Below, piece by piece: positions 9,774 through 60,843 of a stretch of DNA of 64,000 bases. The notes under the pieces were generated by a model that saw nothing but the letters and a program-made list of their open reading frames with translations, did no database searches and was not told the DNA's origin. This DNA comes from Fundidesulfovibrio putealis DSM 16056 (GTDB lineage: Bacteria > Desulfobacterota > Desulfovibrionia > Desulfovibrionales > Desulfovibrionaceae). The translations under genes were made by a program, and so were the position numbers. How positions within the stretch are numbered: the stretch's first letter is position 1; each line of letters opens with the position of its first letter. Where the stretch lies: NCBI RefSeq assembly GCF_000429325.1, contig NZ_AUBQ01000003.1, positions 124,001 through 188,000 on the forward strand, given 5' to 3'.

Positions 9774-10866
9774 CCATGGCATGTGGAACAATCACATATT
9801 ACCCTTTTTTGGGGCAGGCTGCAAGCTCAACAAGATTACGTCTGAAAAGATACTTGAGTTCCGTGGGGTTCTTTCCACTAAAAACATCAGCCCTCAGACT
9901 GTCCGGCATATCCTCGGCCTGTTGCGTCGGGTGCTAAACCGTGCTTTTGAATGGAGAATGATTAAGTCTGTCCCGAAATTTGAGATTCAGAGGTTTGACA
10001 ATAAGCGCGATCGTTTTTTGTCCGAAGATGAAGTCGAACAACTGCTCTCAGTTTTGAAAAGTCGGTCTCGTCTTTGGCATGACATCACAGTCCTATGCGT
10101 CCATACTGGACTCAGGTTTGGCGAAATGCGCAATCTCCGCGCGCATAATTTTGACGAATCAAATCGAATAATTCATGTACGGGATACCAAGTCATGCAAC
10201 AACAGGAGCATACCATTAAATGACAAGGCGTATGAGGTGCTGCTTCTAAACAAGTCAAAACAAGAATTCATATTTACGTACAATGGAAAACGGCTAAATC
10301 GTCCTGGAAACTCTTTTTGGAAAGCGGTCGAGGCCTGCGGTTTCAACTTAGGCGTCACGGATAGACGGCATAGGGTCGTATTTCATACGTTGAGACATAC
10401 GTTCGCAAGCTGGCTTGTACAACGTGGCGTCCACCTGCTCACGGTCAGCAAGCTACTGGGGCACACGTCCACGGAGATGACCATGCGCTATTCACATCTC
10501 GCACCAAAGCAAGGGAGAGATGCGGTTGACGCCCTTCTCTCGCTCAGCAAGGAGCCCGCTGCCCTGCCCACGAAGGGGACGGCGGAAGATCAGTCTAAAG
10601 CGCAAACATCCAGTGAGGCACCGCACGCACCGCGTATGACTTTTGCCCAGAACCTTCAGCCTTGTTCGGGCTGCATAAATAGAAATCTGCTCTTCAGGTC
10701 AACGTTCCAATCCATAGTTGATCCCTGCTTTCTTTGCCTGCAAGACGTGATGGATTGGCCTCCGGGGATCACTGGAGTGGGCAGCCTTGACAAATTCAAA
10801 GTCACATTCAATTCCGCTGAGGATTCAACCCCATTCAGCTATATGAAGTTGTTCCTTTCTAAGTAG
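9688..10866 (+). CDS. int: Tyrosine recombinase / integrase of the ICE
   Basis: 392 residues. An N-terminal core-binding domain (1-105) is followed by the catalytic domain with R143 (HTGLRFGE), K168, H233 and R236 (HTLRHTF), H259 (LLGHTS) and the nucleophile Y268 (MRYSH). The first two thirds match the common phage-integrase family in length, but about 110 residues beyond the tyrosine are unusual, including CSGC and CFLC pairs. Start set by AAGGAGGAAAC before ATG. It lies 80 bases inside attL, the usual place for the enzyme that recombines att sites. Confidence 0.93.
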   Translation: MTVATLSTIWPTYLRLVRHGAGPHALRTDHGMWNNHILPFFGAGCKLNKITSEKILEFRGVLSTKNISPQTVRHILGLLRRVLNRAFEWRMIKSVPKFEIQRFDNKRDRFLSEDEVEQLLSVLKSRSRLWHDITVLCVHTGLRFGEMRNLRAHNFDESNRIIHVRDTKSCNNRSIPLNDKAYEVLLLNKSKQEFIFTYNGKRLNRPGNSFWKAVEACGFNLGVTDRRHRVVFHTLRHTFASWLVQRGVHLLTVSKLLGHTSTEMTMRYSHLAPKQGRDAVDALLSLSKEPAALPTKGTAEDQSKAQTSSEAPHAPRMTFAQNLQPCSGCINRNLLFRSTFQSIVDPCFLCLQDVMDWPPGITGVGSLDKFKVTFNSAEDSTPFSYMKLFLSK

Positions 10867-11407: not shown

Positions 11408-11585
11408 AAAGTGGTAAATTTTTTCACGATCCGTAGTTGCGTCTTTTCGGGGTCTTAGCTTCTGGGCGCACCAGGTTTATCCGGCTTGGCCAGCTCCTGC
11501 AGGAAGTCTTCGGCGCAAAATCCTTCCCACTCACAGGGGCAATTGTAGGGTTCTGAGCGGTGCGACTTCCCACCGCGAATGGCCC
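11408..11585. repeat. Left copy of a 178-bp direct repeat (accessory segment boundary)
   Basis: Closely matches 19667-19845 in the same orientation, from AAAGTGGTAAATTTTTTCAC to the CCACCGCGAATG end, with scattered substitutions. Read on the minus strand both copies encode the same peptide end (GGK-HRSEPYNCP-EWEGF... ending APRS and stop), so the repeat includes the 3' part of a small ORF. The pair encloses 8.3 kb of cargo. Confidence 0.85.
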
Positions 11586-11590
11586 CTCTA

Positions 11591-11990: not shown

Positions 11991-12198
11991 TTGGTTCCCG
12001 ACAGGTATTGCTCCGTCAGTTACAATCCAGAAGGTTGACGAACTGCCCAGGATAAGCGAACAAATCCTCCTCGCAACTCCCGCGTAGCTCATTCGGTAGA
12101 GCACTTCCACTCAGGTCATCCTGCTCTGGTCGTCCAATCCGAAACATTGGGCACCCCTTCATTCGCCGTCGGCCATAATTCCTTAACCTGGCGCAACA

Positions 12199-14160
12199 AT
12201 GCACATTATTAAGACCTCCATCCTCCTGGGCGAACTCGGCCTGCTCACTGCCTCTTGGTACCTTCTCCAAGACCGGGATCAGCCCGCCTCCGAGGCCCTG
12301 GCCCGCGCCATGGCTTTGACCCTGGCCTCCCTGGGCTTAGCCATTTTAGCCCTTTTCTCCGCGCGGTTGACTCACTTGCACCATGCCCTAGACGTCGGGA
12401 TTGCTGTCTTCGCCTTCCATGCAATGCGGCGGCGGCAGCGCTCCCTGGGGTCGGATCTCAGAGCGGTTCTGCTCCTGCATCGCGAGCCTTTGGCCTACTG
12501 CATAATCCTTGCGGCTCTGGTTCTGTTGGTTCAGGCCCTGGCCGTCCCGCCCGCCAATTGGGACTCCATGACTTATAATCTAGCACGCGTGCTCCTCATG
12601 TACCAGGAGAACACACTTGCCTTGGAAAATTACAGTACCTTCAGGCAACTGGCCTTTAGCCCTGGGTTTGATCTGCTTCACTTTTTCTTCTTGCGGCTTC
12701 GTACAGACATTGGCGTAGCGGTTTTTTCTTGGATTTCATGGTGCTGCGTAGTCGCGACGGCCTATTCATTTGGCCGACGGCAAGGCCCAGAATCGCTGGG
12801 TTTGGCCGTTGCGCTAGTGACGGGTTCTTTCAAGCTCCTGGCGCTGCAAGCCACGTCCACCAAGAATGACATCGGGGCCGCAGCCATGGCATGCGCCTGC
12901 GTGTTGGGGGTCGGCGCGCTGATGCGGCGGTCGCGCGTGTCGGACGCAGCGTTTTTGGGTATATGTATTGTGTTCGGGCTGTCTGTGAAAACCTATTTCG
13001 CCTTTTTTGCTCTCGCGATGTCCCTGGCGATTGGGGCTATTTTCCGACGTGAACTGCTGGATATGTCCATGCAAGCTTGGCGGAACTCCCGCCGGAGTGT
13101 CGCCCTTGGAATCCTGCTTCTCGCCGCCGGGGGATGCCTTGCTATGTCCAGCCAGTTCGTGTGCCTCTGGCAATTCGGCAATCCGTTCGGCCCCGAGCCT
13201 CACGTATCGGCCCATCGCAACCTAAATGGCTTTGCGGGGTTCACGGCCAACCTGCTGCGCTACGCGCTCCAACTGCCAGACCTGCCAGGAACTTGGTGGT
13301 CTGGCGTGATCAGCCAAACCCACGCATGGATTATCGGCTCGGTTCGTGGCCCGGGGGCGGCAATGGATTTCGTGCCCCTCCATGGTCTAGGAGCTTGGTG
13401 GTCAGAGGATGTGGGCTGGTTCGGTCCCGTTGCATTCATCCTGGTTATCCCCTGCATGTTTGGAGCTCTCTTCTCCCGCGACCGCTTTGCTCGCGCAGTG
13501 GCCTGGACCCTTGCGATAACTTCGGTTTTCCTGGTCTGGACCGTGGTATGGATGAGTTTCAACGGCCGGTTCTTTGCCCTGGTATTCGCGGCATCGTCCG
13601 CATGCTTGGCCTGGGCCGCCCCCTGGTGGTGGGGTCACGAATGGATCAGGCGAAGTGTGTTGGGCACAAGCCTTTTGGTCCTGGCCTCCGCGCTGGTCCT
13701 CAATCAGGGAAAGCCCCTTCTGGACCACGAGGTCCTGGGCGGAGATAAATTTGACTGGGCCAAGGCTCTCTCCCGAAGGGATGGTGACCGCCGTGGCGTG
13801 TACGATGAACATTTCAACAGCAACGTATTCCTGGAATACTTGGCGCGCGGCATGTTTCCGAATCGCCATATTCTACTTGCAGCCAGTGAGGATAGTTGGG
13901 TGTATCCCGTGCTATTCTTCAACGAACATCGCTGGGTGGTCACAGGGGAGGATAACCCCTTGACGCGCATAGACGGCGAAGTCTTCGACATCCGTGAATG
14001 CGCGCGATTTCGGGAACTGGGCGAACATTTCGATCAAGTGGTGGTAATGGAATACGAGATCGCTATGACCTGCGCGAACGATGCCGGGTGGCGGCCGGTG
14101 CTGCGCACCATCGCTCCATGGGGGGCCGTGGCGGTGTTCGATCCGCACGCCGTACCCTGA
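12199..14160 (+). CDS. Polytopic membrane glycosyltransferase (GT39/GT83-like)
   Basis: 653 residues with about twelve hydrophobic segments. Near residue 115 is NWDSMTYNLARV, the acidic loop expected after the first segments in lipid-linked sugar transferases of the mannosyltransferase/ArnT-like clan. The C-terminal 130 residues are soluble (DKFDWAKALSRRDGDRRGVYDEHF). It probably glycosylates lipid or surface polymer at the membrane. ATG 12199 has only a weak ribosome site. It is alone on the element, with no nucleotide-sugar genes nearby. Confidence 0.65.
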   Translation: MHIIKTSILLGELGLLTASWYLLQDRDQPASEALARAMALTLASLGLAILALFSARLTHLHHALDVGIAVFAFHAMRRRQRSLGSDLRAVLLLHREPLAYCIILAALVLLVQALAVPPANWDSMTYNLARVLLMYQENTLALENYSTFRQLAFSPGFDLLHFFFLRLRTDIGVAVFSWISWCCVVATAYSFGRRQGPESLGLAVALVTGSFKLLALQATSTKNDIGAAAMACACVLGVGALMRRSRVSDAAFLGICIVFGLSVKTYFAFFALAMSLAIGAIFRRELLDMSMQAWRNSRRSVALGILLLAAGGCLAMSSQFVCLWQFGNPFGPEPHVSAHRNLNGFAGFTANLLRYALQLPDLPGTWWSGVISQTHAWIIGSVRGPGAAMDFVPLHGLGAWWSEDVGWFGPVAFILVIPCMFGALFSRDRFARAVAWTLAITSVFLVWTVVWMSFNGRFFALVFAASSACLAWAAPWWWGHEWIRRSVLGTSLLVLASALVLNQGKPLLDHEVLGGDKFDWAKALSRRDGDRRGVYDEHFNSNVFLEYLARGMFPNRHILLAASEDSWVYPVLFFNEHRWVVTGEDNPLTRIDGEVFDIRECARFRELGEHFDQVVVMEYEIAMTCANDAGWRPVLRTIAPWGAVAVFDPHAVP

Positions 14161-17645: not shown

Positions 17646-18637
17646 GTCAAAAACCCCTTTGTGTGGTCACCCACTGGGTGCACCCTGAAATCATCAACTA
17701 TCTTGAACCGCATTGCCGTCTTGTCGTTAACAAAACCCGCGAAACCTGGCCGCGCCAGATCCTCTTTGACCATCTCAAAGAGGCGGACGCCGCCATGATG
17801 TTTATGCCTGACTGGGTGGATGCCGAACTGCTGGACAATGCCCCCCGCCTTAAAATCGTGGGGGCAGCCCTCAAGGGCTATGACAACTTTGATGTGGACG
17901 CGCTGACGTCCAGGGGCGTGTGGCTTTCCTACGTGCCGGACCTTCTGACCATTCCCACGGCAGAGCTGACCATTGCCCTTATGCTGGCCCTGGGACGTCA
18001 TGTGCTGCCAGGGGACAAACGGGTGCGCAGCGGGGCTTTTGAAGGCTGGCGGCCCATTTTTTACGGCCAGGGCCTGCACGGCTCCACCGTGGGCATCATC
18101 GGTCTGGGCCGCCTGGGCCAGGCCGTGGCCCAACGCCTGGCAGGCTGGGGCGTGAAGCTTATTGGCTATGACATTGCCGAACTGCCGGATGAACGCAAAC
18201 GCGAACTTGCGCTGGCGCAAACAGATATGCCCACGCTGCTTGCCACTGCCGACTGGGTGGTGTGCGTAAGCCCGCTGACCCCTGAATCAAAAGGGCTTTT
18301 GGGCGCGGCCGAACTGGCCGCTATGAAACCCGGCGCGTTTCTTGTCAACACCGGGCGCGGCTCGTGCGTGGACGAAGAGGCCGTGACAGAAGCCCTGGAA
18401 AAAGGCCATCTTGCAGGCTATGCCGCCGACGTCTTTGCCTTTGAAGACTGGGGGCTGGCAGACCGCCCCCGCGATGTGCCCGAGGCCCTGCGGGACCCCG
18501 GTCTGCGCACTGTGTTCACCCCGCACCTTGGATCGGCCGTGGAACAGGTGCGCATTGATATCGCCATGGAAGCAGCCCGCAACATTGTGGACGTGCTCTG
18601 CGGCAAAGCGCCCCGAAATCCCGTAAACACAATCTGA
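17642..18637 (+). CDS. ptxD: Phosphite dehydrogenase (PtxD)
   Basis: 331 residues, a D-isomer-specific 2-hydroxyacid dehydrogenase. Residues known to matter in Pseudomonas stutzeri PtxD are present: the MPD motif (55-57), K78 in ALKGYDNFDVDA, R239 (NTGRGS), E268 (FEDW) and H295 (FTPHLGS); NAD binds at GLGRLG (154-159). The strong local match ALKG-DNFDVDA-T-RGVWL makes PtxD far more likely than a general dehydrogenase. It oxidises phosphite to phosphate with NAD. It follows its own transporter, so the operon should allow phosphite use as phosphorus source. The electron-donor ptd genes are not present. Confidence 0.9.
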   Translation: MSQKPLCVVTHWVHPEIINYLEPHCRLVVNKTRETWPRQILFDHLKEADAAMMFMPDWVDAELLDNAPRLKIVGAALKGYDNFDVDALTSRGVWLSYVPDLLTIPTAELTIALMLALGRHVLPGDKRVRSGAFEGWRPIFYGQGLHGSTVGIIGLGRLGQAVAQRLAGWGVKLIGYDIAELPDERKRELALAQTDMPTLLATADWVVCVSPLTPESKGLLGAAELAAMKPGAFLVNTGRGSCVDEEAVTEALEKGHLAGYAADVFAFEDWGLADRPRDVPEALRDPGLRTVFTPHLGSAVEQVRIDIAMEAARNIVDVLCGKAPRNPVNTI

Positions 18638-19666: not shown

Positions 19667-19845
19667 AAAGTGGTAAATTTTTTCACGAACGTAGTTATGT
19701 CTTTTCGGGGTTTTAGCTTCTGGGCGCACTAGGTGGATTCGGCCTGGCCAGCTCCTGCAGGAGGTCAACGGCGTTAAATCCTTCCCACTCACGGGGGCAA
19801 TTGTAGGGTTCTGAGCGGTGCGTTTTCCCACCGCGAATGCCCCCC
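19667..19845. repeat. Right copy of the 178-bp direct repeat
   Basis: Pairs with 11408-11585 in direct orientation. The flank here (CCCCCCTGAGAGCC) differs from the left copy, where the MITE-like element begins. See the left copy for the shared peptide end. Confidence 0.85.
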
Positions 19846-21577: not shown

Positions 21578-22072
21578 CTAATGCTTTCTGCGCCAATTCC
21601 ATGGCGCGGTAGGATTGGGCTGGCCCCAAAGCCCGGCCTTGGCGGTGCGTGCCGAGGCCTCAGTCTCCTTCCAGGCTTCGCACGTCGGCGTTTTGCAATA
21701 CCGGGTATAGTGCCAGGCTAGGCCTGCCCGAAGCAGCTCCTGATTCAATACAGGCCCATCGGGCTTGCCCAGCCGCACAACGGCCACTAAGCGCCCGTAA
21801 TGGTCCTTGTCGATAACATCCAGGAAGACCTGGCCCCCGGCCTGGACGATCTTTGATGTCACGAAGTCCTTGGCCTCCTGGCCAAAAGGCTGGTCCTTCT
21901 CCGGGCAGTCGATGCCGTACAGACGCACGCGGGCATTCCCAACGTGCAACGTGTCGCCGTCGCTCACCTTCCTGACCTGGCCAGCCTCCCACGCCATGGC
22001 CACCACCGGCAGCACCAGAACCGTGAGGATCAGCGCAATAAACGCCGGGAAGATTCTCTTCATGTCTTTCAT
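21578..22072 (-). CDS. Secreted thermonuclease-family nuclease carried by the ICE
   Basis: About 164 residues with a signal peptide (IFPAFIALILTVLVLPVVAMA) and SNase motifs VSDGDTLHV, VRLYGIDCPEKDQPFGQEAK, DHYGRLVAVVRL and WHYTRYC. Similar in layout to the chromosomal nuclease at 5709-6188, including the Y-x-x-YC Cys pair. IncP and related plasmids often carry such nucleases (ParB/Nuc type). Start is ATG 22072 or 22063. Confidence 0.82.
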   Translation of the reverse strand: MKDMKRIFPAFIALILTVLVLPVVAMAWEAGQVRKVSDGDTLHVGNARVRLYGIDCPEKDQPFGQEAKDFVTSKIVQAGGQVFLDVIDKDHYGRLVAVVRLGKPDGPVLNQELLRAGLAWHYTRYCKTPTCEAWKETEASARTAKAGLWGQPNPTAPWNWRRKH

Positions 22073-22110
22073 TTTCTTTTGCCTTGCTTGTGCGTCTTTC
22101 GCCGGTTGAC

Positions 22111-22335
22111 TCAAACCGTCAGATGATGCTCCATGATGTTATTGTCCGGCATCTTCTTTCTGAGGCTATCAACATACCGCCTCGCATTGTAAGCCTCTCG
22201 TGGTGCAAGAGCCCCTTTGAAGACGTACCACTCCCCGGCGAATCCATGGTCCAGGCCAAGCCTTTCAAAGCGTTCCAAAACTTCATCGTCCGGTTTTGCA
22301 TCGAAAATATATTCGACGTGATCGAAGTCAGGCAT
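22111..22335 (-). CDS. Small hypothetical protein
   Basis: 74 residues with aromatic beta-like pattern (FDHVEYIFDAKPDDEVLERFERLGLDHGFAGEWYVF). Start after AAGGAGTACTCATC. No family recognised. Confidence 0.55.
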   Translation of the reverse strand: MPDFDHVEYIFDAKPDDEVLERFERLGLDHGFAGEWYVFKGALAPREAYNARRYVDSLRKKMPDNNIMEHHLTV

Positions 22336-24357: not shown

Positions 24358-24493
24358 TGTGATGAGTCATATTTCCACAAAGGCATACTTTCGTCAAGTA
24401 ATAAATTGTAAAATGAGAATTTGATAATTGTATGGTACGATTCATCACAAATCTGGCCGGGGGGGTTGACACGACGCGGAATTGTCTATACAT
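24358..24493. promoter_or_regulatory. Divergent parA / brnT regulatory region
   Basis: TGTGATGAGTC near 24358 recurs inverted as GATTCATCACA near 24440, spaced 80 bases, a possible operator pair. For brnT a TTGACA at 24466 and TATACAT at 24487 (15-base spacer) would start transcription almost at the ATG 24501, which has no ribosome site, so brnT may be leaderless. Confidence 0.45.
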
Positions 24494-24500
24494 TTTGACC

Positions 24501-24782
24501 ATGCAATTTGAATGGGACAAAACAAAGGCTCAGGCTAACCTGGACAAGCACGGCTTGGATTTCGAGGATGCCAAGAAAGTTTTTTCCCGTCCTGTCGTGA
24601 TAACGCCGGATGCGCGGCGCGACTATGGCGAGCTGAGATACAAAGCCTTGGGGGAGCTTGACGGAGTGATAGTCTACATCGCCTTCACGCCCCGAAGGGA
24701 TGCAGTTCGCATCATTTCCATGCGCCCGGCCAATAGAAAGGAGCGTGAAGCGTATGCCAAATCCCACCAAAAGCGACCTTAG
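24501..24782 (+). CDS. brnT: BrnT-family toxin (RNase)
   Basis: 93 residues from MQFEWDKTKAQANLDKHGL. The family pattern F-W-D-x-x-K-x-x-x-N-x-x-K-H-G and the later RIISMRPANRKERE are present. BrnT is a ribonuclease toxin neutralised by BrnA. The first ATG of the frame (24432) is 23 codons earlier; 24501 matches the family start. Confidence 0.9.
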   Translation: MQFEWDKTKAQANLDKHGLDFEDAKKVFSRPVVITPDARRDYGELRYKALGELDGVIVYIAFTPRRDAVRIISMRPANRKEREAYAKSHQKRP

Positions 24783-25047
24783 CCGCGTTCGGGCCATGTC
24801 TGACGCTGACATAGAGCGAATTGCTTTGGAAGACCCTGACGCCCAACCCATGACGGACGAAGAGTTGGCGCAAGCAAAACGGATGCGCCTGGATGATTTT
24901 TTGCCAACTACCAAGGCAAAAGTTTGTTTGCGGCTGGATCAGGACGTGGTGACATGGTTCCGTGCCCGTGGGCGCGGGTATCAAACCAAGATCAATGCCG
25001 CCTTGCGAGCCTTCATAGATTCCCAGGAACATCGGCCCCGGCCCTAA
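24754..25047 (+). CDS. brnA: BrnA-family antitoxin
   Basis: 97 residues, overlapping brnT by 29 bases, with AAGGAGCGTGAAGCGT before ATG. The C-terminal DNA-binding part KVCLRLDQDVVTWFRARGRGYQTKINAALRAF is the BrnA ribbon-helix-helix. Usually represses its own operon together with BrnT; helps keep the ICE in the host. Confidence 0.9.
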   Translation: MPNPTKSDLSRVRAMSDADIERIALEDPDAQPMTDEELAQAKRMRLDDFLPTTKAKVCLRLDQDVVTWFRARGRGYQTKINAALRAFIDSQEHRPRP

Positions 25048-25075
25048 CCTAAGGCACCCCCTGGCTCTGCGAAAA

Positions 25076-25302
25076 CCCTCTTCACGCCGCTTCGGCGTGT
25101 AGGCTCTTCGCGGAGCGTACCCAAGCCATACAGCGTCGGTCCATGGCCACGAGCTGCGCTAGAGTATGGCTTGCGTTAGTCCACCCCGCGCCCTCACCGG
25201 CCTGCCTTTAAAATGGTCCTCGTAGCCGAACATGCTGCACCTGGTCATACGCGGGCACGGGCTCCGGCCCGCTTCGGGCCGGTGGGGGCCTGTGTGCTTT
25301 TC
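25076..25302 (+). repeat. Dispersed 230-bp repeat, copy A
   Basis: Two conserved ends around a variable middle. Left end: CCCTCTTCACGC hairpin then AGGCTCTTCGCGGAGCGTAC. Right end: GGGCACGGGCTCCGGCCC, hairpin GGCCCGCTTCGGGCC, then GGTGGGGGCCTGTGTGC. Other copies are at 42594-42816 (inverted) and 58716-58952. Confidence 0.75.
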
Positions 25303-25978: not shown

Positions 25979-26215
25979 TTATTGCTCGGACTTTGAAGGG
26001 TAGATTGTGGCGATGTTGTCCCGGTGAATCGAGCCGCATTTTCCGCCGTCCGTGTTCGTAGGGAATCCGTCGCGGTTGAACATCCGAAGGGCCGGGCGTT
26101 TCTCTTGCGCGAGCTGGTACGCGGCCACGTAGTGCAAACCGCCGTACACTGAACGCACAAGGCAAAGCTCTTCGGGCTTGAGTCCATTGTAGTAGTTCGG
26201 GGCTTTGGTCTGCAT
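25979..26215 (-). CDS. Small hypothetical protein preceded by structured element 1
   Basis: 78 residues starting MQTKAPNYYNGLKPEELCL, after CCGGAGAAAAGCC. The start MQT and ribosome site are shared with the methyltransferase gene at 28541. The upstream structured element reads open in this frame for another 81 codons, but that extension is conserved as structure rather than protein. No family recognised. Confidence 0.6.
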   Translation of the reverse strand: MQTKAPNYYNGLKPEELCLVRSVYGGLHYVAAYQLAQEKRPALRMFNRDGFPTNTDGGKCGSIHRDNIATIYPSKSEQ

Positions 26216-26221: not shown

Positions 26222-26648
26222 TCTCCGGGGTTTTGTGTCTTTGCTTCTTGCCTTCTCTCCCCCCCAACATCCTTCCGGCGGAGGGGGGGAGGGGCAGGGC
26301 CTTTCATCTTCAAAAGGCCTGACCCTCCCCCATCCCGCCGGAAGGCCGCGAACTCTGGAAAATGCGTGCTGTTGCCCGTGGCCAGGTAGCAGGCCGAGTG
26401 ACAGGGCCTCGGGCTTTGACGAGGACCTGGCGCGAAGGCGTGCATTGGCCACGGGCAAGCCTTCAGCACGCCACCGCCCAGCGGTTCTGTGCTCTTAGCC
26501 TTCCTGGGCTCCGGCTGTTTGGATTTGAGGAGCCGACAAGGCGCCGATCTCCGCCCCGGTTCATCCGGGGCAATCGCCGGGTCCAGGGCCGGGCACCGGC
26601 CCTGGTCGCGGGAGAGCGCGAGAGGGGGGGCGACTCCCCCCTCTCGCC
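26222..26648 (-). repeat. Structured leader element, copy 1 of 3
   Basis: A GC-rich non-coding block filling the gap between the methyltransferase stop and the next start. It folds into about seven stems, including CCTTCCGGCGG / CCGCCGGAAGG, GCGTGCTG / CAGCACGC, TTGCCCGTGGCCA / TGGCCACGGGCAA and CCAGGGCCGG / CCGGCCCTGG. Copies 2 and 3 keep the pairing while changing bases. Confidence 0.85.
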
Positions 26649-26711
26649 CGATTTTGAAGTTCCCTTCCCCGTCCAGGCCTGAAGGCCTGGACGATGGAAG
26701 AGGTAGAAGGA

Positions 26712-28541
26712 CTAGATCAGGCTTTGCATCTCAGCACGTTCCCGGACATGGGGTTTACTGATGGTGAGCAGGGCGACCCTGACGCCTGTTCCCGCTTCCT
26801 TGAAGGAGCCCTCCGGGAGGTTTTCCCAGGTAGTGGCCAGGGGCTTCAGCTCGTCATTCTGGCGCGGCCCGTTGGCGCACAGGGCCACCAGGACGCCCCC
26901 AGGGCGGAGCATGTGCAAGGCGTGCTTGATGTGCTTGATGTCCACGCCGTTCTCAAAGGGCGGATTCATCACGATCCGGTCAAAGGTGCCAAGGTCGCCG
27001 TTGCAGGCCAGGAAATCCGCCCGGTGGATGTGGAGCCCGGACAGGCCCAAGCGCGTCAGGCCCTCGGCGAGGTCCAGGTTGATTTCCACGGCTACCTTGT
27101 CGGGCTGGTCGCCGATGGCCCGGAGCAGGTTGCCCGTGCCTGCGCTGGGCTCAAGCACGCGGTGATCGGGGTGGATGTCGGCCAGGTCCACCATTTGCTC
27201 GGCGATCGCGTTCGGGGTGGGGAAGAGCTGGGGCACGGCCTTGACCTCCACGGGCTTCTTGGCAGCCTCCTTGAGAGCCTGAAAGGCTTTGTCGTCTTCG
27301 TTTTCTTCCTTGGACGGCGCGGGGACAATCGGGCGCGGTTGGGGTTTGGGGGCCTCAACCTCGATCGTGGCCGGGCGTTCGTGCACTTTGGCGTCGGTCA
27401 GGTAGACGCACACAAGCGCGCTCTTGACGATGGCGATCCTGACGCGGTGGGAATTGTCCACCATTCGTGTGCCTTTATAGTCGCGCCAGATGGCCGCATA
27501 TTCGGCTTGCGTCATCTCTACCTGTGCGAAGGGCTCAGACTGGCCGCGTCCGTCGAACCTCGTGATGGCGATGCCTTCGGGCGCGCGATAGTTGCAGATG
27601 GGGAGTTGCTTAGGGCGCGGCTTCTTCTCCAGCAGCGCGCTTGCGCCCTGTTCTTCCAACATGGCCTTTTCGTAGGCCAGCCGGTTGTCATAATGGGCAA
27701 TCCATCGGTCGTGCCAGGGGATCATCCTGGAGTGTGCTTCCACTGCGATGTCGCGGGCCTGCTCGGGCGTGATTATGTTATCCTCTAAGGCGCTCCAAAG
27801 GCTTCGCGATCCTTCGTAGGTGTTTTCCGTGCGCGGGTACTCGGAGAGCGGGAAGCAGCGTGAGATATGGTCACGGTCGGTGATGTAAAGCGCCCGCTCG
27901 CGGAAGGTCAGGGGCTCGCCGTCCTTACGTTTGATAGCGGCTGCGTCGTTGGCCCACAGTTTCAGGAACATTTCCGCTTGCGCCTTGCTGCGCTCCTGCT
28001 TCCGCTTGTCTGCTTCAAGGGTCTTGATGCGGCGAGCGCGCACGCCGGGGAGTTCCTTGTATTTTGCATGGGCCAAGGCACCGGCTGCCCTGGTGGTCCA
28101 GTATTTTGACGTTTCCCAAAGGTTTACGGCCTTCCGCATGCCGTTTTCGATGCGCTCCGCGTCCTTTCTTGCGCGTTTCTCGCTGTGGTGCCCCACAAGG
28201 ATCGGCTGGCCAAGCGGGATGCCGTCCGCGAGCGTGTCAACGGCTTTGCGGGCGCTGTGCGCATCCGCTGCCCGCTTTTCGGAGTAGCCCTCGAACCGCT
28301 CGGCGCGATCTTCGGCACGATCAACCAAGCTGGTGTCTTCGTCGCCAATCTCGCCGCACAGTTCAAGCGCGAGATCCTCACGCTCGGGCGTCCACATCGG
28401 GGCAACGAAAAGCTCTTGCTGCGGTGCCCACTTATACCCGGCGGCCTTCACGCGGGCGTATGTTCCGGCGTCCAGGCGGCTTGAGGCGTACAGCCGCAAC
28501 TTGTTGTCTTCGGGCGAATATGTGGCGGTCATGGTCTGCAT
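26712..28541 (-). CDS. DUF3560 protein with C-terminal DNA methyltransferase-like domain
   Basis: 609 residues. N-terminal DUF3560-type region (ATYSPEDNKLRLYASSRLD, YKWAPQQELFVAPMWTPERED), a long charged helical middle, and a SAM-dependent methyltransferase fold in the last 170 residues: FPTPNAIAEQMVDLADI, VLEPSAGTGNLL and the N6-adenine-type IVMNPPFENG. Such proteins are common on conjugative plasmids and may protect incoming DNA from restriction; this role is inferred. Start fixed by CCGGAGAAGAGCC. Confidence 0.8.
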   Translation of the reverse strand: MQTMTATYSPEDNKLRLYASSRLDAGTYARVKAAGYKWAPQQELFVAPMWTPEREDLALELCGEIGDEDTSLVDRAEDRAERFEGYSEKRAADAHSARKAVDTLADGIPLGQPILVGHHSEKRARKDAERIENGMRKAVNLWETSKYWTTRAAGALAHAKYKELPGVRARRIKTLEADKRKQERSKAQAEMFLKLWANDAAAIKRKDGEPLTFRERALYITDRDHISRCFPLSEYPRTENTYEGSRSLWSALEDNIITPEQARDIAVEAHSRMIPWHDRWIAHYDNRLAYEKAMLEEQGASALLEKKPRPKQLPICNYRAPEGIAITRFDGRGQSEPFAQVEMTQAEYAAIWRDYKGTRMVDNSHRVRIAIVKSALVCVYLTDAKVHERPATIEVEAPKPQPRPIVPAPSKEENEDDKAFQALKEAAKKPVEVKAVPQLFPTPNAIAEQMVDLADIHPDHRVLEPSAGTGNLLRAIGDQPDKVAVEINLDLAEGLTRLGLSGLHIHRADFLACNGDLGTFDRIVMNPPFENGVDIKHIKHALHMLRPGGVLVALCANGPRQNDELKPLATTWENLPEGSFKEAGTGVRVALLTISKPHVRERAEMQSLI

Positions 28542-28548
28542 GGCTCTT

Positions 28549-28963
28549 CTCCGGGGGGTTGTGTCTTTGCTTTTTGCCTTCTCTCCCCCCAACATCCTTC
28601 CGGCGGAGGGGGGGAGGGGCAGGGCCTTTCACTCTTCAAAGGCCTGCCCCTCCCCCATCCCGCCGGAAGGCCGCGAACTCTGGAAAATGCGTGCTGTTGC
28701 CCGTGGCCAGGTAGCAGGCCGAGTGACAGGCCGAAGGCTTTGCGTAGGCCTGGCGCGAAGGCGTGCATTGGTCACGGGCAAGCCTTCAGCACGCCACCGC
28801 CCAGCGGTTCTTTGCTCTTAGACTCCTGGGCTCTGGCTGTTCGGATTTGAGGAGGCGAGAACTCGCCGATCTCCGCCCCGGTCGTCCGGGGCAATCGCCG
28901 GGTCCAGGGCCGGGCACCGGCCCTGGTCGCGGGAGAGCGCGAGAGGGGGGCACCCCCCTCTCG
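28549..28963 (-). repeat. Structured leader element, copy 2 of 3
   Basis: Nearly identical to copy 1 in its stems, with the CAGGCC / GGCCTG helix clear near 28727-28753. It ends seven bases before the start of the DUF3560-methyltransferase gene. A terminator for the upstream gene precedes it. Confidence 0.85.
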
Positions 28964-28981
28964 CCGGCTGCGGATTGAAGC

Positions 28982-29022
28982 AGTAAAAATGAAGCGCGCC
29001 CGGCGTTTCACGCCAGGCGCGC
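28982..29022 (-). terminator. Terminator between 29059-29184 and the structured element
   Basis: Stem GCGCGCC-GGCG / CGCC-GGCGCGC; on the minus strand it is followed by TTCATTTTTA. It isolates the small gene at 29059 from the structured element. Confidence 0.75.
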
Positions 29023-29058
29023 TCAAAAGGGGGAAACCGGGCCTTGCGGCCCGGGGTA

Positions 29059-29184
29059 TCAACAGTGGTTGTGCGAGTGACGGCGGTGACGGCCCTTCCG
29101 TGGCGGAAGCCGGAAGGTCAGGATAAGCGCGACTGTGGCCATGAGCGCCAACACGACGACAAAGAGGGTTTCGGTGTATGTCAT
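29059..29184 (-). CDS. Very small membrane protein
   Basis: 41 residues: MTYTETLFVVVLALMATVAL membrane helix and a basic His-rich tail (PPRKGRHRRHSHNHC). Start after TGGAGGGTGTGCAA. Single-span microprotein of unknown role. Confidence 0.5.
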   Translation of the reverse strand: MTYTETLFVVVLALMATVALILTFRLPPRKGRHRRHSHNHC

Positions 29185-29375
29185 TTGCACACCCTCCAGG
29201 TTATAACTTGCGAAATTGCTAGGCATCCAATGCCTATCCAAATTCCCAACGGCCGATCTTGAAAGAAGCCTACCAACAAAGAGCCAGCCGCGACCTTTTC
29301 AAAGGCATCCGCGAAACGCTTCAATACTGCCGTCACAATGCCTCCTTACTCATCCCTGGCAGGGGTTGTCCAGCC
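29185..29375. other. Intergenic gap
   Basis: 191 bases with no credible gene or strong structure; contains the promoter for the small membrane protein, presumably. Confidence 0.3.
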
Positions 29376-30059
29376 TTAAGCAGAACCTTCCCCGACAAAA
29401 GCCCCCTCGCACTTTGCGCACATCATGGCCAGACCGGGCTTGCCCCAGGCGTTTTGCCCGCATGGGCATGTGTATTTGAGCTTGCTTTGCCTGGGCTTTC
29501 TGGGCTTGGGCTCACCACCTTCGCCCTCCTCGCCATCGGCCTGGACCGGTGCCGTGGGCAAGCAATCCACGCTCTGAAAGTTGAAGCGGAAACCGGCGGC
29601 AAGTAGCTCCTGGCAGACCTGTTCAAACAGTCCGCCGGGCATCACATAGTCGGACATGCTCGGGCCGACTTTACGGCCCCCAGGCTGGCCAGTGTCGGAA
29701 GGTATGAGTCCGATTGCCTCCATCTTCCCCGCCCATTCCTTGTTGTGGTAGCCGCCCCGGGTGGGCTTGCCGAAGCACCACTGCCAGTGATGGGCCATTT
29801 CGTGCCCGAGGGTCTGCAATATCTCAACGTCCGTCTGCTTCCGAAAGACTGCGGGGTTCAAAGCCAACTCCGGGACACTGCCGGAACCGTCCCGGCGCTC
29901 GAACCGTCCCGGCGAGTAGTACCCGCACGAGCCCGCCTTGCGCTGGTAGGTGATGAGCAAATCGGGCAGCTCACCATCGAACAGGCGCTCATTGAAAAAG
30001 GCGTAAGCACGCTCGATTCCGGTGTATTCCCTGCCAGTAAGTTCCGGTTTAGCGCCCAT
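29376..30059 (-). CDS. SprT-like zinc metalloprotease
   Basis: 227 residues. The HExxH motif HEMAHHWQW is at 86-90, after a SprT-type N-terminal domain (RAYAFFNERLFDGELPDLLITYQRK). A C-terminal zinc ribbon (TCPCGQNAW, MCAKCEGAF) is as in SprT/Spartan-type proteins. These may act on DNA-bound proteins; here it sits between ssb and the methyltransferase, among genes probably used on DNA entry. Start after AAGAGGAAGATC. Confidence 0.85.
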   Translation of the reverse strand: MGAKPELTGREYTGIERAYAFFNERLFDGELPDLLITYQRKAGSCGYYSPGRFERRDGSGSVPELALNPAVFRKQTDVEILQTLGHEMAHHWQWCFGKPTRGGYHNKEWAGKMEAIGLIPSDTGQPGGRKVGPSMSDYVMPGGLFEQVCQELLAAGFRFNFQSVDCLPTAPVQADGEEGEGGEPKPRKPRQSKLKYTCPCGQNAWGKPGLAMMCAKCEGAFVGEGSA

Positions 30060-30151
30060 GATCTTCCTCTTGATTAGTACGAAACACTTTTAGGTCCCAT
30101 CATCCCGTATGGGCGGCGCATCCAGCCGGACACGCCGCCCTTGCCTATTCC

Positions 30152-30601
30152 CTAGAACGGCACGTCATCCATGCCCGAGGCCTCGGACGGGAAAGCCGGA
30201 CCGTAGTCATCTTCGCCCCCTGACTTGTTCTTGCTGTCCTCGCCCTCGGACTTCTTCTTCTCCAGGAACTTGATGCAGTGGGAGCCGTTGGCCAGAACGA
30301 TTTCAGTCATGTAGTGCTTTTGGCCGTCCTTCTCCCAGGAACGAGTCTTCAAAGAGCCTTCGACGTAGACCAGGCGGCCCTTGTAAAGATGCTCGGCGTA
30401 GAACTTTGCCGATTCGCCGAACACCTTGACGCGGTGCCACTCCACCGCCTGGACTTTCTCCCCGGCCTGGTTCTTGTAGGTTTCGCTGGTGGCCACGTTC
30501 ATTTCGGCCACGGCACGCCCGGAGGGCAGGTATGTGAGCTTGGGGTCCTGGCCCAATCTGCCGATGAGGGACACCTTGTTCATGCTGTTCAGGCTGCTCA
30601 T
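30152..30601 (-). CDS. ssb: Single-stranded DNA-binding protein
   Basis: 149 residues. OB fold: MNKVSLIGRLGQDPKLTYLPSGRAVAEMNVAT, VEWHRVKVFGESAKFYAEHLYKG and VYVEGSLKTRSWEKDG. The acidic tail ends MDDVPF, the usual tip that binds partner enzymes. Coats transferred single-stranded DNA. ATG follows AAGGAGTAAAGAC. A structured element fills the gap to the coupling-protein gene. Confidence 0.95.
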   Translation of the reverse strand: MSSLNSMNKVSLIGRLGQDPKLTYLPSGRAVAEMNVATSETYKNQAGEKVQAVEWHRVKVFGESAKFYAEHLYKGRLVYVEGSLKTRSWEKDGQKHYMTEIVLANGSHCIKFLEKKKSEGEDSKNKSGGEDDYGPAFPSEASGMDDVPF

Positions 30602-30622
30602 GTCTTTACTCCTTATGCCTTT

Positions 30623-31043
30623 AGGGTTTTCGTCTTTTGCTTTCTGCCTTACCCCCACCGTTCCTTCGGCGGAGGGGGGGAGGGGCAGGGCCTTTCATCT
30701 TCAAAAGGCCTGCCCCTCCCCCATCCCGCCGAAGGGCCGCGAAATCTGGAAAATGCGGGCTGTTGGCCGAGGGCAGGTAGCAGGGCGAGTGACAAGCCTG
30801 GAGGCTTTGCGGAGGGCTTGGCGCGAAGCCGTGCATTGCCCTTGGCCAAGCCTTCAGCCCGCCACCGCCTAGCGGTTCATTGTTCATCGGTTCCTGCCTT
30901 CGGCTGTATGTCTTTGAGGCGTGCGAGGAGCCGCCGGTCTTCGCCCCGGACCCCCCAAGCGTCCGGGGCAATCGCCGGGTCCAGGGCCAGGCTCTGGCCA
31001 TGGTCGTGGGAGAGCGCGAGAGGGGGGCGACACCCCCTCTCGC
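30623..31043 (-). repeat. Structured leader element, copy 3 of 3 (upstream of ssb)
   Basis: Diverged copy of the elements at 26222 and 28549. Stems change together: GCGGGCTG / CAGCCCGC instead of GCGTGCTG / CAGCACGC; TTGGCCGAGGGCA / TGCCCTTGGCCAA instead of TTGCCCGTGGCCA / TGGCCACGGGCAA; CAAGCC / GGCTTG instead of CAGGCC / GGCCTG. It begins 10 bases after the TraD stop and ends 21 bases before the ssb start. Confidence 0.85.
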
Positions 31044-31053: not shown

Positions 31054-32853
31054 CTAGTTGGAAGCCATCTGCACTTTGTCTTCATAGACGCCGTGCCTGA
31101 CAAAGGCCTGCCCGGTCTCCAGCCGCTTGATGTCGTCCGGGTGCACGACGAACTCCCGCACCAGGCGGTTGCTCATCATGCCGGTGAACTCGTCCTCGTC
31201 TGACTGTGCTGTGGATTTGAGCGCCTCCTTTGTGCCGAACAAGCTTGCAAGCTCTTCGGCATCCTTGTGGTCGTTCTGCTTCTGCACCATGAGCGTGTTG
31301 CAGTTCTGGATGATCTGCCGGCGAAGAGCCTCGCCGCTCTCCAGCTTGTCGATGTCCGCCAGGCTCTGGAAGGCGAGGAGCGCTTCAAATCCCGCGCTGC
31401 GGGATTTGTTGATGATGTCCACGACCTGGTGCGAAGCGAAGACGTTGAATTCGTCGAAGAACAAGGCCACCGGCTCGGGGGTTTCCTGACTGTTTCGGGA
31501 GTGGACGGAAATGGCGGTTTTCAGGTCGTTGACGATGAGCCGCCCGAGCGCCCGGCTCTGTTCAGGATACCTCAGGCTGTCGAGGCTGAAGAGAACCGCC
31601 TCCTTGCGCTCGATGGAGTCGGCCAGGTTCAACCCGCCATCCTTGAAGATCGGCCGAAGATCTCCTTCGGCCAGCGCTGAAATGCGTCCCTGAAGGCCGG
31701 ATACGGCCTTGGGATCAACATTCTCCATCAGCCGCCAGCAGCGGAGCGCTTCAGGCTCCACCACCTGCTCAGGCATTTTCCTGTCCACGTCCTCAGGACC
31801 GAAGGGTTCGACCTTCGCGTCCTCCTTCTGCTTCTTTGCCTTCTTGGGATCGTCTTTTATGCCCAGAAGCCGCTTCACGTTCCGGCGATCGCAGTATTCC
31901 ACCACGTTGGAAAGGGAGGGGCGTTTTCCGCGCAATGTGAACGCGATGAGCAGTTGTTGCAGGAAGCTCCTGGCTCCGAGCTTGTAGTGTTCTTCGCTCC
32001 AGTCGAACAGGCCGATGATCTTATCCGTAAGTTCATCCGGGGTGCCTGACGAAAAGGCATTGTACGCGGTATCTCCGTCCATGGTGATGACGGAACAGGG
32101 AATTCCATAGTCAGCCATTGTGGATTTGAACTTTCGGATATTGCCACGGTCGCCCTTGCCATCCACGAAGACGATGGCCTTTCGATTCAGCGCGGCGTTA
32201 ATGATGAAGTTGTAGAGGCTCACGGTCTTGCCCGCACCTGTAGTCCCTATGAGACAGAGATGCTGCGTGAGCCACTCGTGGGGAATGGCCACGGGCAATG
32301 CCGTCTTGAAGCTCAACCCGATGGGCACGGTGTTTTCCGTCTGCCTTGTGAAGCGCTTCCAGTGACGCGGCTTCAGCCGCTTCTCGCCCCTGTGTTGCGC
32401 GAGAACACCCTTGATGGAATCATGCTGCTTGAGTGACAGACCGGCCATCCCACAGGCGCAAGCGGTTGTCAGGGCAAGCAGGATGGACGGAACGATGAAA
32501 ACCACCAGCCAGTCATACATGGGTTGATGGGTGAAGAAGTAAGGAATGCTTCGCGCGTCGGTATTTGCAATGGCCTCCATGCTGAAATATTCGTAGTGCC
32601 AGATTGCCAAAGTCTGAATAAACGCATTGCCTCGGTACAGAATGAACGAGCTTGAAAATAACACCACAAAGGCCACTGCCAGACTTTTTTTTAGCGTCCG
32701 CTTGGTGTCCGGGTCTTTCATGCGAAGCATGACCAGGCAGTACGCGACCGCGCCGAAGAATAATGGGATGGGAGACAACCAGAAGTTGAAGATGAAGTAT
32801 GCGATGGGCAGGACGCCCAGCAGGGTCGTTTTCGCGTCGTCTTTTCTGATCAT
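31054..32853 (-). CDS. TraD/TraG-type coupling ATPase (T4CP)
   Basis: 599 residues. Three or four N-terminal membrane segments, then the motor domain: Walker A LIGTTGAGKTVSL near 220 and Walker B VALFFDEFNVFAS near 455. Couples the relaxed DNA strand to the secretion channel. TraD-like rather than RP4 TraG, judging by the Walker A context and C-terminal region (VREFVVHPDDIKRLETGQAF). Follows the putative relaxation protein by 10 bases. ATG after GAGGAGTGTTGC. Confidence 0.9.
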   Translation of the reverse strand: MIRKDDAKTTLLGVLPIAYFIFNFWLSPIPLFFGAVAYCLVMLRMKDPDTKRTLKKSLAVAFVVLFSSSFILYRGNAFIQTLAIWHYEYFSMEAIANTDARSIPYFFTHQPMYDWLVVFIVPSILLALTTACACGMAGLSLKQHDSIKGVLAQHRGEKRLKPRHWKRFTRQTENTVPIGLSFKTALPVAIPHEWLTQHLCLIGTTGAGKTVSLYNFIINAALNRKAIVFVDGKGDRGNIRKFKSTMADYGIPCSVITMDGDTAYNAFSSGTPDELTDKIIGLFDWSEEHYKLGARSFLQQLLIAFTLRGKRPSLSNVVEYCDRRNVKRLLGIKDDPKKAKKQKEDAKVEPFGPEDVDRKMPEQVVEPEALRCWRLMENVDPKAVSGLQGRISALAEGDLRPIFKDGGLNLADSIERKEAVLFSLDSLRYPEQSRALGRLIVNDLKTAISVHSRNSQETPEPVALFFDEFNVFASHQVVDIINKSRSAGFEALLAFQSLADIDKLESGEALRRQIIQNCNTLMVQKQNDHKDAEELASLFGTKEALKSTAQSDEDEFTGMMSNRLVREFVVHPDDIKRLETGQAFVRHGVYEDKVQMASN

Positions 32854-32863: not shown

Positions 32864-33445
32864 TCATAGCGGCATCATTTTCGCTTCAATGTAATCGCGA
32901 ACAACCTTGTCGCTCGCCAGCATCAACACGCGGTCCCTGATTTCCTCCGACCCGCAATAATAAACGACCTTGAAGTATTCACCGTTGCGCAATGCCGCCA
33001 CATACTTCCAAATGTTCTCTTCCTGCCGCTTCAGGCTTTTTTGCGACAGTTCGACCTCGATAGCGGCGCTCTTCCCTTGGAATGTGATCACGAAGTCCGG
33101 TATCTTCTCGGTGAGGCCCCTCCTTCCTTTTTCTTCGATGATCAGGCTCCGCAGCTTCGCGCCGCCGATGTATTCGCAATCGAGCTTCCCGAGGATGTGC
33201 TTGCAAAGCTCCTTGCATTTCCTGTCGTGGTCGAAATCCGAAATGTTGAACTTCATTTTGCCCAGATGATAGAGGTTCACGCCGAGCCGGGATTGCGTCA
33301 TTTTCAGCTTGTTGCTTGAAACGAGCCGCTTAAGTCGTTCGCTCGCAGTTGACTTCGCCACTTCCAAGAAGAGCGTCACATCATCCAGGGTGCAGTATCC
33401 CCATTGATGCGCGAGTTCGATGAGTTCCTGTTCTTTCCGTGTCAC
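32864..33445 (-). CDS. Possible replication-relaxation protein (winged helix plus nuclease-like domain)
   Basis: 193 residues. N-terminal winged helix (ELIELAHQWGYCTLDDVTLFLEVAKSTASERLKRLV) and a C-terminal domain with PDFVITFQGKSAAIEVELSQKS. The PD...E-x-E layout and K-S-x-x-R-x-x-x-I-x-x-Y pattern fit the replication-relaxation (Replic_Relax/MobC-like) family, from memory. It is encoded directly before the coupling ATPase and next to large inverted repeats. It is the only relaxase candidate; this is not proven. GTG start after GAAAGGCGGCGTT. Confidence 0.6.
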   Translation of the reverse strand: MTRKEQELIELAHQWGYCTLDDVTLFLEVAKSTASERLKRLVSSNKLKMTQSRLGVNLYHLGKMKFNISDFDHDRKCKELCKHILGKLDCEYIGGAKLRSLIIEEKGRRGLTEKIPDFVITFQGKSAAIEVELSQKSLKRQEENIWKYVAALRNGEYFKVVYYCGSEEIRDRVLMLASDKVVRDYIEAKMMPL

Positions 33446-33581
33446 AACGCCGCCTTTCTGATCCTGGTACGTTCACATGCGAATGGGACGACTCTCTGTG
33501 CCTGCTGTGAAAAGTGCATCGTACTCTTCACAACCGCGCCTTCCGAACGCCCCCTCCGTCTCTCTGCGGATTTTCGCATTT

Positions 33582-33690
33582 ATGCCTTTCCGTCTTCATG
33601 CCTTTGTGCCTTTCTGTATTTTCGTCTTCCCGCCTTTCTGCCTTTTCGTCTTCCTGCCTTTCTGTCTTTGTGCCTTTCTGCCTTTCGATG
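33582..33690 (-). repeat. Purine-rich tandem-like repeat
   Basis: On the minus strand the motif AGAAAGGCA recurs roughly every 11-14 bases with GAAGAC spacers (for example GAAAGGCAGAAAGGCACAAA). It would encode a charged Glu/Arg/Lys peptide but has no start or ribosome site. Same motif as the purine-rich leaders of several ICE genes. Confidence 0.65.
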
Positions 33691-33727
33691 TGCCGCATCA
33701 TCCAGCGCGGCACATCCTTCCTTCGGT

Positions 33728-33794
33728 GGGTAATCAGCTGATGGGGTAATCGGCACGAGTCTTCGAGTGCCATTACCCCATCAGCTGATTACCC
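33728..33794. repeat. Large perfect inverted repeat 1
   Basis: 23-bp perfect arms (GGGTAATCAGCTGATGGGGT plus AAT, at 33728-33750 and 33772-33794), with a further 5-bp stem GGCAC / GTGCC inside. Total 67 bases. The arms contain CAGCTG palindromes themselves. Lies 280 bases upstream of the putative relaxation gene; oriT or replication-origin candidate. Confidence 0.8.
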
Positions 33795-33913
33795 CTCTTA
33801 TTCTTAATTCTTTTTCTTTCTTTTCATTATCTTACTAACTCTACTGACCTACTCTTAATAACTCTTCTTCCTTACTTCTTACTCTTCACTGTCTTTCACT
33901 GTCTTTCTTCTTC

Positions 33914-33983
33914 CCCGCCGCCCCGTTCCAGACCACCCTCTCTCAACTTGTTGGGAGGGGGTGGTCTGGAACGGGGCGGCGGG
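33914..33983. repeat. Large perfect inverted repeat 2
   Basis: 24-bp perfect arms beginning CCCGCCGCCCCGTTCCAGAC (33914-33937) and the complement at 33960-33983, with a partly paired 22-base centre (CTCAACTTGTTGGG). Between the two large repeats lies a 120-base polypyrimidine tract. Together they define the structured gap. Confidence 0.85.
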
Positions 33984-42470: not shown

Positions 42471-42876
42471 TGGAAGCCTCCTCAGGGAATCTGATCTCAC
42501 CGCTCAACAGCACGCTCGGGTCCGAACGCATGGCGTCAGCAATGGCCTTCCGGTACGCTTCTTCTCTGCGCTGCTGCTCAGGCGCCTCCGGGAGAAAGGC
42601 ACACAGGCCCCCACCGGCCCGAAGCGGGCCGGAGCCCGTGCCCTTCGCCCGGGCAGTGTTGCCAGCTCGGCTGCCTGGACTGTTCAAAGGCAGGCCTGGG
42701 AGGGCGCGAGGTGGACAGGCTTGCCCTGGGGAATAGGGACAGCTTGTTGAAGTTGGCGTTCCCTGTCCGGGCTGGGTACGCTCCGCAAAGAGCCTGCACG
42801 CTTCGCGTGAAGAGGGCTTCTTCTCGGGCGCGTCGCCCTTGCCTGGAAGCATCACGTTGTCTTTATCTGAGGGCAT
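42457..42876 (-). pseudogene. Chimeric open frame: repeat B plus a pilus-ATPase fragment
   Basis: 139 codons. The first part (MPSDKDNVMLPGKGDAPEKK) and the middle read through repeat B. The last 40 residues, QQRREEAYRKAIADAMRSDPS then VLLSGEIRF, match the Walker-B segment of PilQ (AYKDAIAGAMRSDPD, VLMIGEIRY). Everything else of an ATPase is missing. It starts inside the pilO end and ends inside pilP. Confidence 0.65.
42594..42816 (-). repeat. Dispersed 230-bp repeat, copy B
   Basis: Inverted copy of the repeat at 25076 and 58716: ends GCACACAGGCCCCCACCGGC and GCTCCGCAAAGAGCCTGCAC, read on the plus strand. The middle is diverged. Lies within the chimeric frame between pilO and pilP. Confidence 0.78.
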
Positions 42877-58715: not shown

Positions 58716-58952
58716 CCCTCTTCACGCCGCTTCGGCGTGCAGGCTCTTCGGCGGAGCCGTACCCAGCACAAACAGGGAACGCTCGCCTCTCGATCCGCGA
58801 CAGGCTATGAAGGGAGTCCAGAAACCCTACCTTTTCCCAGGCCTGCCTTTGAACGGACCTGGGGTCGAGCTGGTTGAACCTGGCCACCCGCAGGCACGGG
58901 CTCCGGCCCGCTTCGGGCCGGTGGGGGCCGGTGGGGGCCTCTGTGCCTTTCC
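58716..58952 (+). repeat. Dispersed 230-bp repeat, copy C
   Basis: Same ends as copies A and B: CCCTCTTCACGCCGCTTCGG then AGGCTCTTCGGCGGAGCCGT at the left, and GGCACGGGCTCCGGCCCGCT then CGGGCCGGTGGGGGCC at the right, with one extra GGTGGGGGCC unit. It fills the gap upstream of traK, where oriT lies in RP4. Confidence 0.78.
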
Positions 58953-60778: not shown

Positions 60779-60843
60779 GAGCGGCTGGCTCGTCAGGACC
60801 GGGACACCACGCCCGGCCGACCGCCCCGAAGGGCGGTTTCGCC
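60779..60843 (+). repeat. 65-bp direct repeat, left copy
   Basis: Begins GAGCGGCTGGCTCGTCAGGA, ends GGGCGGTTTCGCC. Repeated at 61822-61886 with four substitutions. It encloses the convergent pair of exported-protein genes. Confidence 0.8.

Follow-up and report, generated by a model that had tools for sequence, protein, structure and literature searches.

What do three homologous stretches of DNA do in front of three different genes of one mobile element? This question is raised by a 64,000-nucleotide stretch of the Fundidesulfovibrio putealis DSM 16056 genome (contig NZ_AUBQ01000003.1, positions 124,001 to 188,000 of the forward strand; hereafter the window), most of which looks like an integrated conjugative element (ICE). 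Within it, copies A, B and C of a GC-rich element precede, respectively, a small open reading frame (ORF), a gene for a DUF3560 and methyltransferase-like protein, and ssb, all on the minus strand (Table 1). A first-pass annotation, made from the sequence alone, had taken these blocks for either the ICE equivalent of Frpo and ssi, the single-strand promoters of conjugative plasmids, or a leader RNA controlling the same genes. Following up on this, we find that the observation stands and that it is the template strand whose fold is conserved. This contradicts a leader RNA; of the readings considered, the single-strand one has the most support but is unproven.

The blocks are as they had been described: each is ~420 bp long, they are 81–92% identical to one another, and they end at ribosome-binding sites, every copy finishing at a GGAG and the start codon of a minus-strand gene (at 26215, 28532 and 30601 for A, B and C, respectively). 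Read on the + strand from the gene outward, the order is start codon, ribosome-binding site, an unpaired pyrimidine-rich tract, hairpin H1 (73–75 nt), an unpaired spacer, hairpin H2 (106–108 nt), hairpin H3, and three more hairpins. H2 is composed of stems P1–P5 plus the motif AGTG(A/C)CA...GGCGCG, and a T.G pair in P4 is a wobble in 9 of 9 copies (A, B, C, five from two other genomes, and a reduced ninth, all described below). A protein-coding origin of the conservation was ruled out, since indels of 1–2 nt in a loop break the reading frame.

The four covarying arm pairs that had been named are all present in the sequence. When the eight copies other than the reduced one were compared over H2 and H3 (three genomes), 7 of 41 pairs, in 16 cells, were changed on both sides. 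Shuffles gave means of 4.1 pairs and 6.0 cells, reaching the observed values in 10 of 500 (pairs) and 0 of 500 (cells), and sliding the structure by 1–3 columns gave just 1–3 doubly changed pairs. The tested structure was derived from the same sequences, which favours counts of paired cells but alone does not create double changes. The doubly changed pairs bear out the earlier claim that selection acts on folded structure.

Where one strand pairs as a G.T wobble, its complement has an A.C mismatch, and covarying helices therefore also reveal which strand folds. Taken singly, the nine copies fold better on the template (+) strand in 9 of 9 cases with DNA energies and in 8 of 9 with RNA energies; against dinucleotide shuffles the strand difference had z of -3.9, -2.6, -2.4, -2.9, -3.0, -1.3, -2.8, -3.1 and -0.6 with DNA energies and +0.06 to -2.1 with RNA energies, single sequences being a weak strand test. 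The eight-copy consensus separates the strands far more clearly: -71.2 kcal/mol (+) vs -38.7 kcal/mol (sense) with RNA energies, and -24.4 vs -4.8 kcal/mol with DNA energies, a gap as large as the latter occurring in 0 of 60 column shuffles. The corresponding strand bias was z -7.8/-12.1 (RNA/DNA; the DNA value is inflated by a small shuffle spread) and still -5.1/-9.2 when the decayed copy G106_2 was left out. A census of the pairs of H1 and H2, excluding the invariant P4 wobble, counted 507 Watson–Crick, 14 G.T, 3 A.C and 14 other pairs on the + strand; two of the three A.C pairs belong to G106_2, and the stems were picked mainly from + strand folds, with G.T at stem ends possibly favoured. 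In a scan of 19.8–34.2 kb (111 windows of the scan), five of the six most +-biased fall on H1–H2 of A, B and C.

As controls, the same test picked the RNA strand in 3 of 3 sets of tRNAs and leaned to the template strand for the F-type Frpo/ssb element of eight E. coli plasmids (z -1.8/-2.1). When nine stretches of the F plasmid, some of which overlap, were taken singly, z for the strand bias lay between -3.7 and +2.2 (-1.5 before ssb; -3.7 with the second F copy). The conserved fold of the ICE element thus belongs to the + strand, the transcription template of the downstream genes, and not to their mRNA, which argues against an mRNA leader and fits a single-strand promoter or priming site such as Frpo/ssi. 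The folding entity may be either single-stranded DNA or + strand RNA, between which the strand tests do not separate.

As the best explanation, to which we give a probability of about 0.47, we propose that each copy is a single-strand promoter, a cis element active while the + strand of the ICE is single-stranded, i.e., as the strand transferred in conjugation. H1 and H2, both large, would form on the single + strand, followed by the further hairpins, so that the unpaired pyrimidine-rich tract, the ribosome-binding site and then the gene itself lie next to the end of H1. Such hairpins may mimic duplex DNA and load RNA polymerase (or primase); RNA would start at the base of H1, and copying of the single strand would give the mRNA for whichever gene follows (ssb, the DUF3560 methyltransferase gene or the small ORF). 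The same RNA could prime second-strand synthesis. Formation of the duplex would then remove the fold, and expression would stop. Three points here are inferred: action of the + strand as single-stranded DNA, its identity with the transferred strand (T-strand), and the start of polymerase on it. On this proposal, the mobile element probably needs the three downstream genes on entering a new cell.

PMC11541004 and PMC7736820 describe single-strand promoters of F and ColIb-P9 that fold on the entering strand and yield mRNA and primers. Frpo and ssi2–ssi3, as presented there, resemble the ICE elements in being several folded repeats of some hundred nucleotides before ssb and establishment genes; The types of gene are also similar, methyltransferase included, and in F the fold likewise leans to the template strand. 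In contrast, the ICE elements are GC-rich, lack an evident -35/-10, and occur in an ICE of the Desulfovibrionaceae with a MOB_C-like relaxase and a likely late position, and their comparison with two F elements by BLAST gave no convincing similarity (best E 0.006 over 17–34 nt). The proposed equivalence with Frpo/ssi is supported as an analogy, through the template-strand fold, the leading-type genes and the repeated copies as in F, but not as membership of that family. Another likeness is to sso1 of ICEBs1, a folded single-strand element of an ICE; sso1 resembles plasmid sso and was tested for second-strand synthesis (PMC4595007), whereas the ICE elements are three copies at gene starts.

A parallel was found in enterococcal plasmids. 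The coupling protein of pAM373 is second among the plasmid relatives of the window's TraD, and pAM373 is like the ICE in possessing a type IV coupling protein, a replication-relaxation relaxase, a repeat-rich oriT-like region and genes on one strand. Its relaxase gene is followed by a gap of 419 nt (12095–12513; L186 3096–3514), beyond which come small ORFs, the genes for AcrIIA9 and PcfJ, and ssb, all on one strand. The fold of this gap has z -9.7 for the template and -7.1 for the sense strand, a bias of z -5.8; two other pAM373 gaps are unbiased. Homologues of this element were matched at 1202 places in 663 plasmid records, 638 of them Enterococcus. In pAM373 and seven copies picked for diversity among the matches listed, the template strand folds better in 8 of 8, with a consensus z of -4.2 using RNA energies and of -33 using DNA energies, the latter inflated by a tiny shuffle spread. 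Next to the copy is a small ORF or the gene for DnaJ; several of the copies have PcfM or AcrIIA9 beyond it, and some have ssb close by. The Inc18 plasmid NZ_CP148054.1 carries, after an inverted repeat and before mobQ, TAAGTGCGCCCT (7943–7954, + strand), which we take to be nic by its consensus; the two long copies on this plasmid (9582–9873 and 10436–10727) have + as the folding strand and precede minus-strand genes. With the nic consensus on +, the folding strand would enter in this one plasmid, leaving oriT away from the relaxase gene. The pAM373-type element thus shares with the ICE elements a template-strand fold and a repeated occurrence before leading-type genes, but is AT-rich and forms one long nested hairpin rather than two, and sequence comparison of the two gave no convincing similarity.

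Gene order suggests a T-strand for the ICE. A candidate oriT adjoins the gene of a MobC-like putative relaxase, with a similar layout upstream of the pAM373 relaxase gene; the PF03432 relaxase matches of the genome are on other contigs. A relaxase gene typically enters last (PMC11541004). All identified type IV secretion system (T4SS) and relaxase genes of the ICE are on the minus strand, so by this rule the + strand, the one that folds, would be the T-strand. An oriT at traK is a possible alternative, considered because TraL (E 4e-65) and TraM (weakly) resemble IncP.

The family is narrow. In the 4.7-Mb genome A, B and C were the sole full copies found; beyond self-matches of the hairpins, a 39-nt piece matched on contig C21 (L042; 3632 bases), which holds the reduced ninth copy (covariance-model E 0.007) together with a MobA/MobL relaxase. 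Three further copies are in Solidesulfovibrio alcoholivorans DSM 5433 (G187_1 to G187_3) and two in another genome (G106_1 and G106_2). A covariance model of H2 and H3 placed the family in 4 of 348 genomes of the order, the window's genome counted; the two large covariance-model searches used the stricter filters of Infernal, with which weak relatives may be missed. A match in a further genome, G163 (30.7 bits), sits within a protein-coding gene and was dropped. Among 199 genomes of the taxonomic family, blastn matched 16 with E ≤ 1e-3, four of them judged true, and the covariance model matched none of the remaining 12; neither copy C against plasmids nor copy B against phages gave a homologue in blastn. 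A pattern scan of species genomes returned 17 stretches, of which 3 (two genomes) are true and 14 lack the flanking stems by eye, adding no genome, and a scan of viral contigs returned 77, many with one common spacing that is presumably a conserved phage gene. No element match was found in the other five DUF3560 genomes of the taxonomic family, three of which carry short DUF3560 frames of 233–309 aa.

In Solidesulfovibrio the genes that follow these homologues include SprT and again DUF3560 types, two of the three matching the window's genes or their neighbours. After the C21 and G106_1 copies there are only short peptides. The peptide downstream of G187_3 had by eye resembled the start of ssb; comparison gave no alignment. 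Contig 28 of Solidesulfovibrio (L039) also contains isolated partial copies, distal hairpins alone, in opposite orientation (9937–10064 and 18493–18619).

Several observations weigh against a single-strand promoter. With the likeliest oriT upstream of mobC, the relaxase-last rule puts the entry of the three genes late, albeit in the form of the template strand; the elements are thus likely to enter late and not first, so that the earlier description as leading-region-type holds for the gene types (ssb, DUF3560 methyltransferase) while placement in a leading region is putative. The main contrary observation is on C21, where a sequence resembling the MOBQ nic consensus would make the sense strand the T-strand; the strand bias of that copy is itself not significant (z -0.6). 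The two copies in G106 are convergent, facing each other. On the pCF10-like enterococcal plasmid NZ_CP136342.1, a search for three short nic motifs was negative; there the element, like its genes, is directed towards the relaxase gene, and by the relaxase-last rule the folding strand would be the retained one, a case that may be contrary. A sigma-70 promoter scan at the elements found none above chance, nor did linear scans show a clear -35/-10 consensus; in a linear hexamer scan the score of the F element is no higher. As to the fold, the counts come from copies of shared ancestry and are not independent, wobble positions each counted once number 8 vs 3 (p 0.23, not significant), one scan window on H1 of B has no + bias (+1.4), and the most minus-biased window, 28901–29160, takes in the distal hairpins of B.

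A last point against the single-strand promoter is that the strand tests fit + strand RNA equally well, the RNA energies favouring + as well (z -7.8). It is nevertheless unlikely that a structured RNA, non-coding or antisense, is made from the + strand in the direction away from the gene and controls the mRNA leader or acts alone: the only promoter-like match on + near the elements lies within the DUF3560 gene, A, B and C adjoin translation starts, and DNA energies separate the strands better than RNA energies in 7 of 9 single-copy shuffle tests, a weak hint. No Rfam family reaches its gathering score at the elements, the only such matches in the whole window being two hammerhead ribozymes elsewhere; 98 matches at lax E-values in 24.5–31.1 kb, nearly all miRNA-type hairpins, were taken as chance. 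Rather less likely again is a site for priming only (ssi/sso), serving the second strand after transfer or in rolling-circle replication, with proximity to genes incidental. It would account for the template-strand fold and for the C21 and G106_1 copies with their short peptides, and ICEBs1 employs such a site, with similar sequences in several other ICEs (PMC4595007), but it leaves aside that three copies in one element each adjoin a gene and its ribosome-binding site, and that two of the three genes in Solidesulfovibrio match the window's genes or neighbours.

Repeated mobile or recombinogenic DNA, such as a cassette boundary or attC-like site placed before different genes with no role in expression, is improbable. 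The isolated partial copies, the convergent pair and the spread over several contigs are what it would predict; against this, the fold is maintained by compensatory changes, and A, B, C and G187_1 to G187_3 all have the same orientation relative to their genes. Least probable is the mRNA leader of the first-pass annotation, whether a riboswitch, an attenuator or autoregulation by SSB. Both the location before the start codon and the strong folding of the sense-strand RNA of single copies against shuffles (z -6.2, -6.8 and -8.1 for C, B and A) would suit it, yet it is contradicted by a sense-strand consensus much weaker than that of the template strand and by wobbles most of which become A.C mismatches in the sense RNA.

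Table 1. Elements, hairpins and neighbouring genes in the window (CM, covariance model)
Feature	Position	Strand	Remarks
Element copy A, upstream of ORF 25979–26215	26228–26647	- (conserved fold on +)	CM match 26347–26485 +, 150.9 bits
Hairpin H1 of copy A, closest to gene	26271–26345	+	
Hairpin H2 of copy A	26364–26471	+	stems P1–P5; AGTGACA at 26397
Hairpin H3 of copy A	26473–26485	+	
Distal hairpins H5–H7 of copy A	26554–26647	+	near-perfect; no clear strand preference
Element copy B, upstream of DUF3560 methyltransferase gene	28556–28964	-	CM match 28672–28808 +, 153.4 bits
Hairpin H1 of copy B	28596–28670	+	
Hairpin H2 of copy B	28689–28794	+	AGTGACA at 28722
Element copy C, between TraD stop and ssb	30624–31043	-	CM match 30738–30876 +, 150.4 bits
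Hairpin H1 of copy C	30663–30735	+	
Hairpin H2 of copy C	30755–30862	+	AGTGACA at 30788
ORF after copy A, 78 aa	25979–26215	-	no Pfam or NCBIfam family found
DUF3560 + methyltransferase-like protein, after copy B	26712–28532	-	PF12083 E 4.1e-41; methyltransferase match below cut-off
SprT-like protein	29376–30059	-	PF10263 E 4.9e-11
ssb, after copy C	30152–30601	-	PF00436 E 4.1e-33; TIGR00621 E 5.7e-38
TraD-type coupling protein	31054–32853	-	PF10412, PF12696; SXT_TraD subfamily E 1.1e-30, below its cut-off
MobC-like (MOB_C, replication-relaxation) putative relaxase	32864–33445	-	NF041423 E 7.9e-8, below cut-off
oriT candidate	33563–33983		8-bp direct repeats; a perfect 23-nt inverted repeat and one of 34 nt

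The limits of the apparent ICE, 9169–63054, come from comparison with a metagenome-assembled contig of the Desulfovibrionaceae (WSYE01000003.1, genome G118), which is 99.5–99.7% identical and whose match ends on both sides. The conjugation genes identified in it (T4SS genes, the TraD-type coupling protein, the MobC-like putative relaxase, TraL and TraM) lie at 31–58 kb, all on the minus strand. The MobC-like protein has the spacing E-x-E-x3-K-x3-R of MOB_C relaxases; three weak relatives are on plasmids, all Gram-positive, and the gene is present in 2 of the 199 family genomes, the window's own being one of the two. Plasmid records with relatives of the DUF3560 protein number at least 5000; of the 5000 that were counted, 3843 are typed as conjugative. 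The Solidesulfovibrio relative of the SprT-like gene has its own element copy upstream.

Elsewhere in the window, a second dispersed family of GC-rich repeats occurs at 25073–25302, 42594–42819 and 58716–58933 (~73% identical, one copy inverted), one copy directly upstream of ORF 58299–58694. Type II hammerhead ribozymes at 60779–60844 and 61822–61887, both on the minus strand (63.2 and 54.2 bits), are ~1 kb apart near the right end of the ICE and as a pair could free or circularise an RNA; an MCP signalling domain is at 62612–63175. The left side reads by eye as tyrosine-recombinase-like at ~9.7–10.9 kb, and direct repeats of 179 bp (11408–11586 and 19667–19844, 89% identical) flank a cargo block of ~8 kb. 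A thermonuclease (SNase) gene is at 21578–22114 on the minus strand; pPRO1 has such a gene close to DUF3560, and two enterococcal plasmids have one in the vicinity of their structured elements. Two overlapping + strand ORFs at 24432–25047 look by eye like a BrnT/BrnA-type toxin-antitoxin pair.

The 2024 survey (PMC11541004) used BLAST to extend a set of five known Frpo/ssi sequences and sought new candidates through a -35/-10 consensus plus structure. For Desulfovibrio and enterococci, targeted searches of the literature did not turn up a report of such elements. Tentatively, and with some doubt, we suggest that single-strand promoters arose independently of Frpo at least twice, in ICEs of the Desulfovibrionaceae and in enterococcal plasmids, and that they may be found by the strand of a covarying fold before establishment genes. 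The strand test is the most useful outcome of this work, since it makes the question directly testable on many elements. If the suggestion is true, it would offer a consensus-free route to such promoters and to the anti-defence genes behind them, and with one non-homologous family in an ICE from the family of a sulfate reducer and a second in enterococcal plasmids, conjugation would in general include a stage of expression from the incoming strand.

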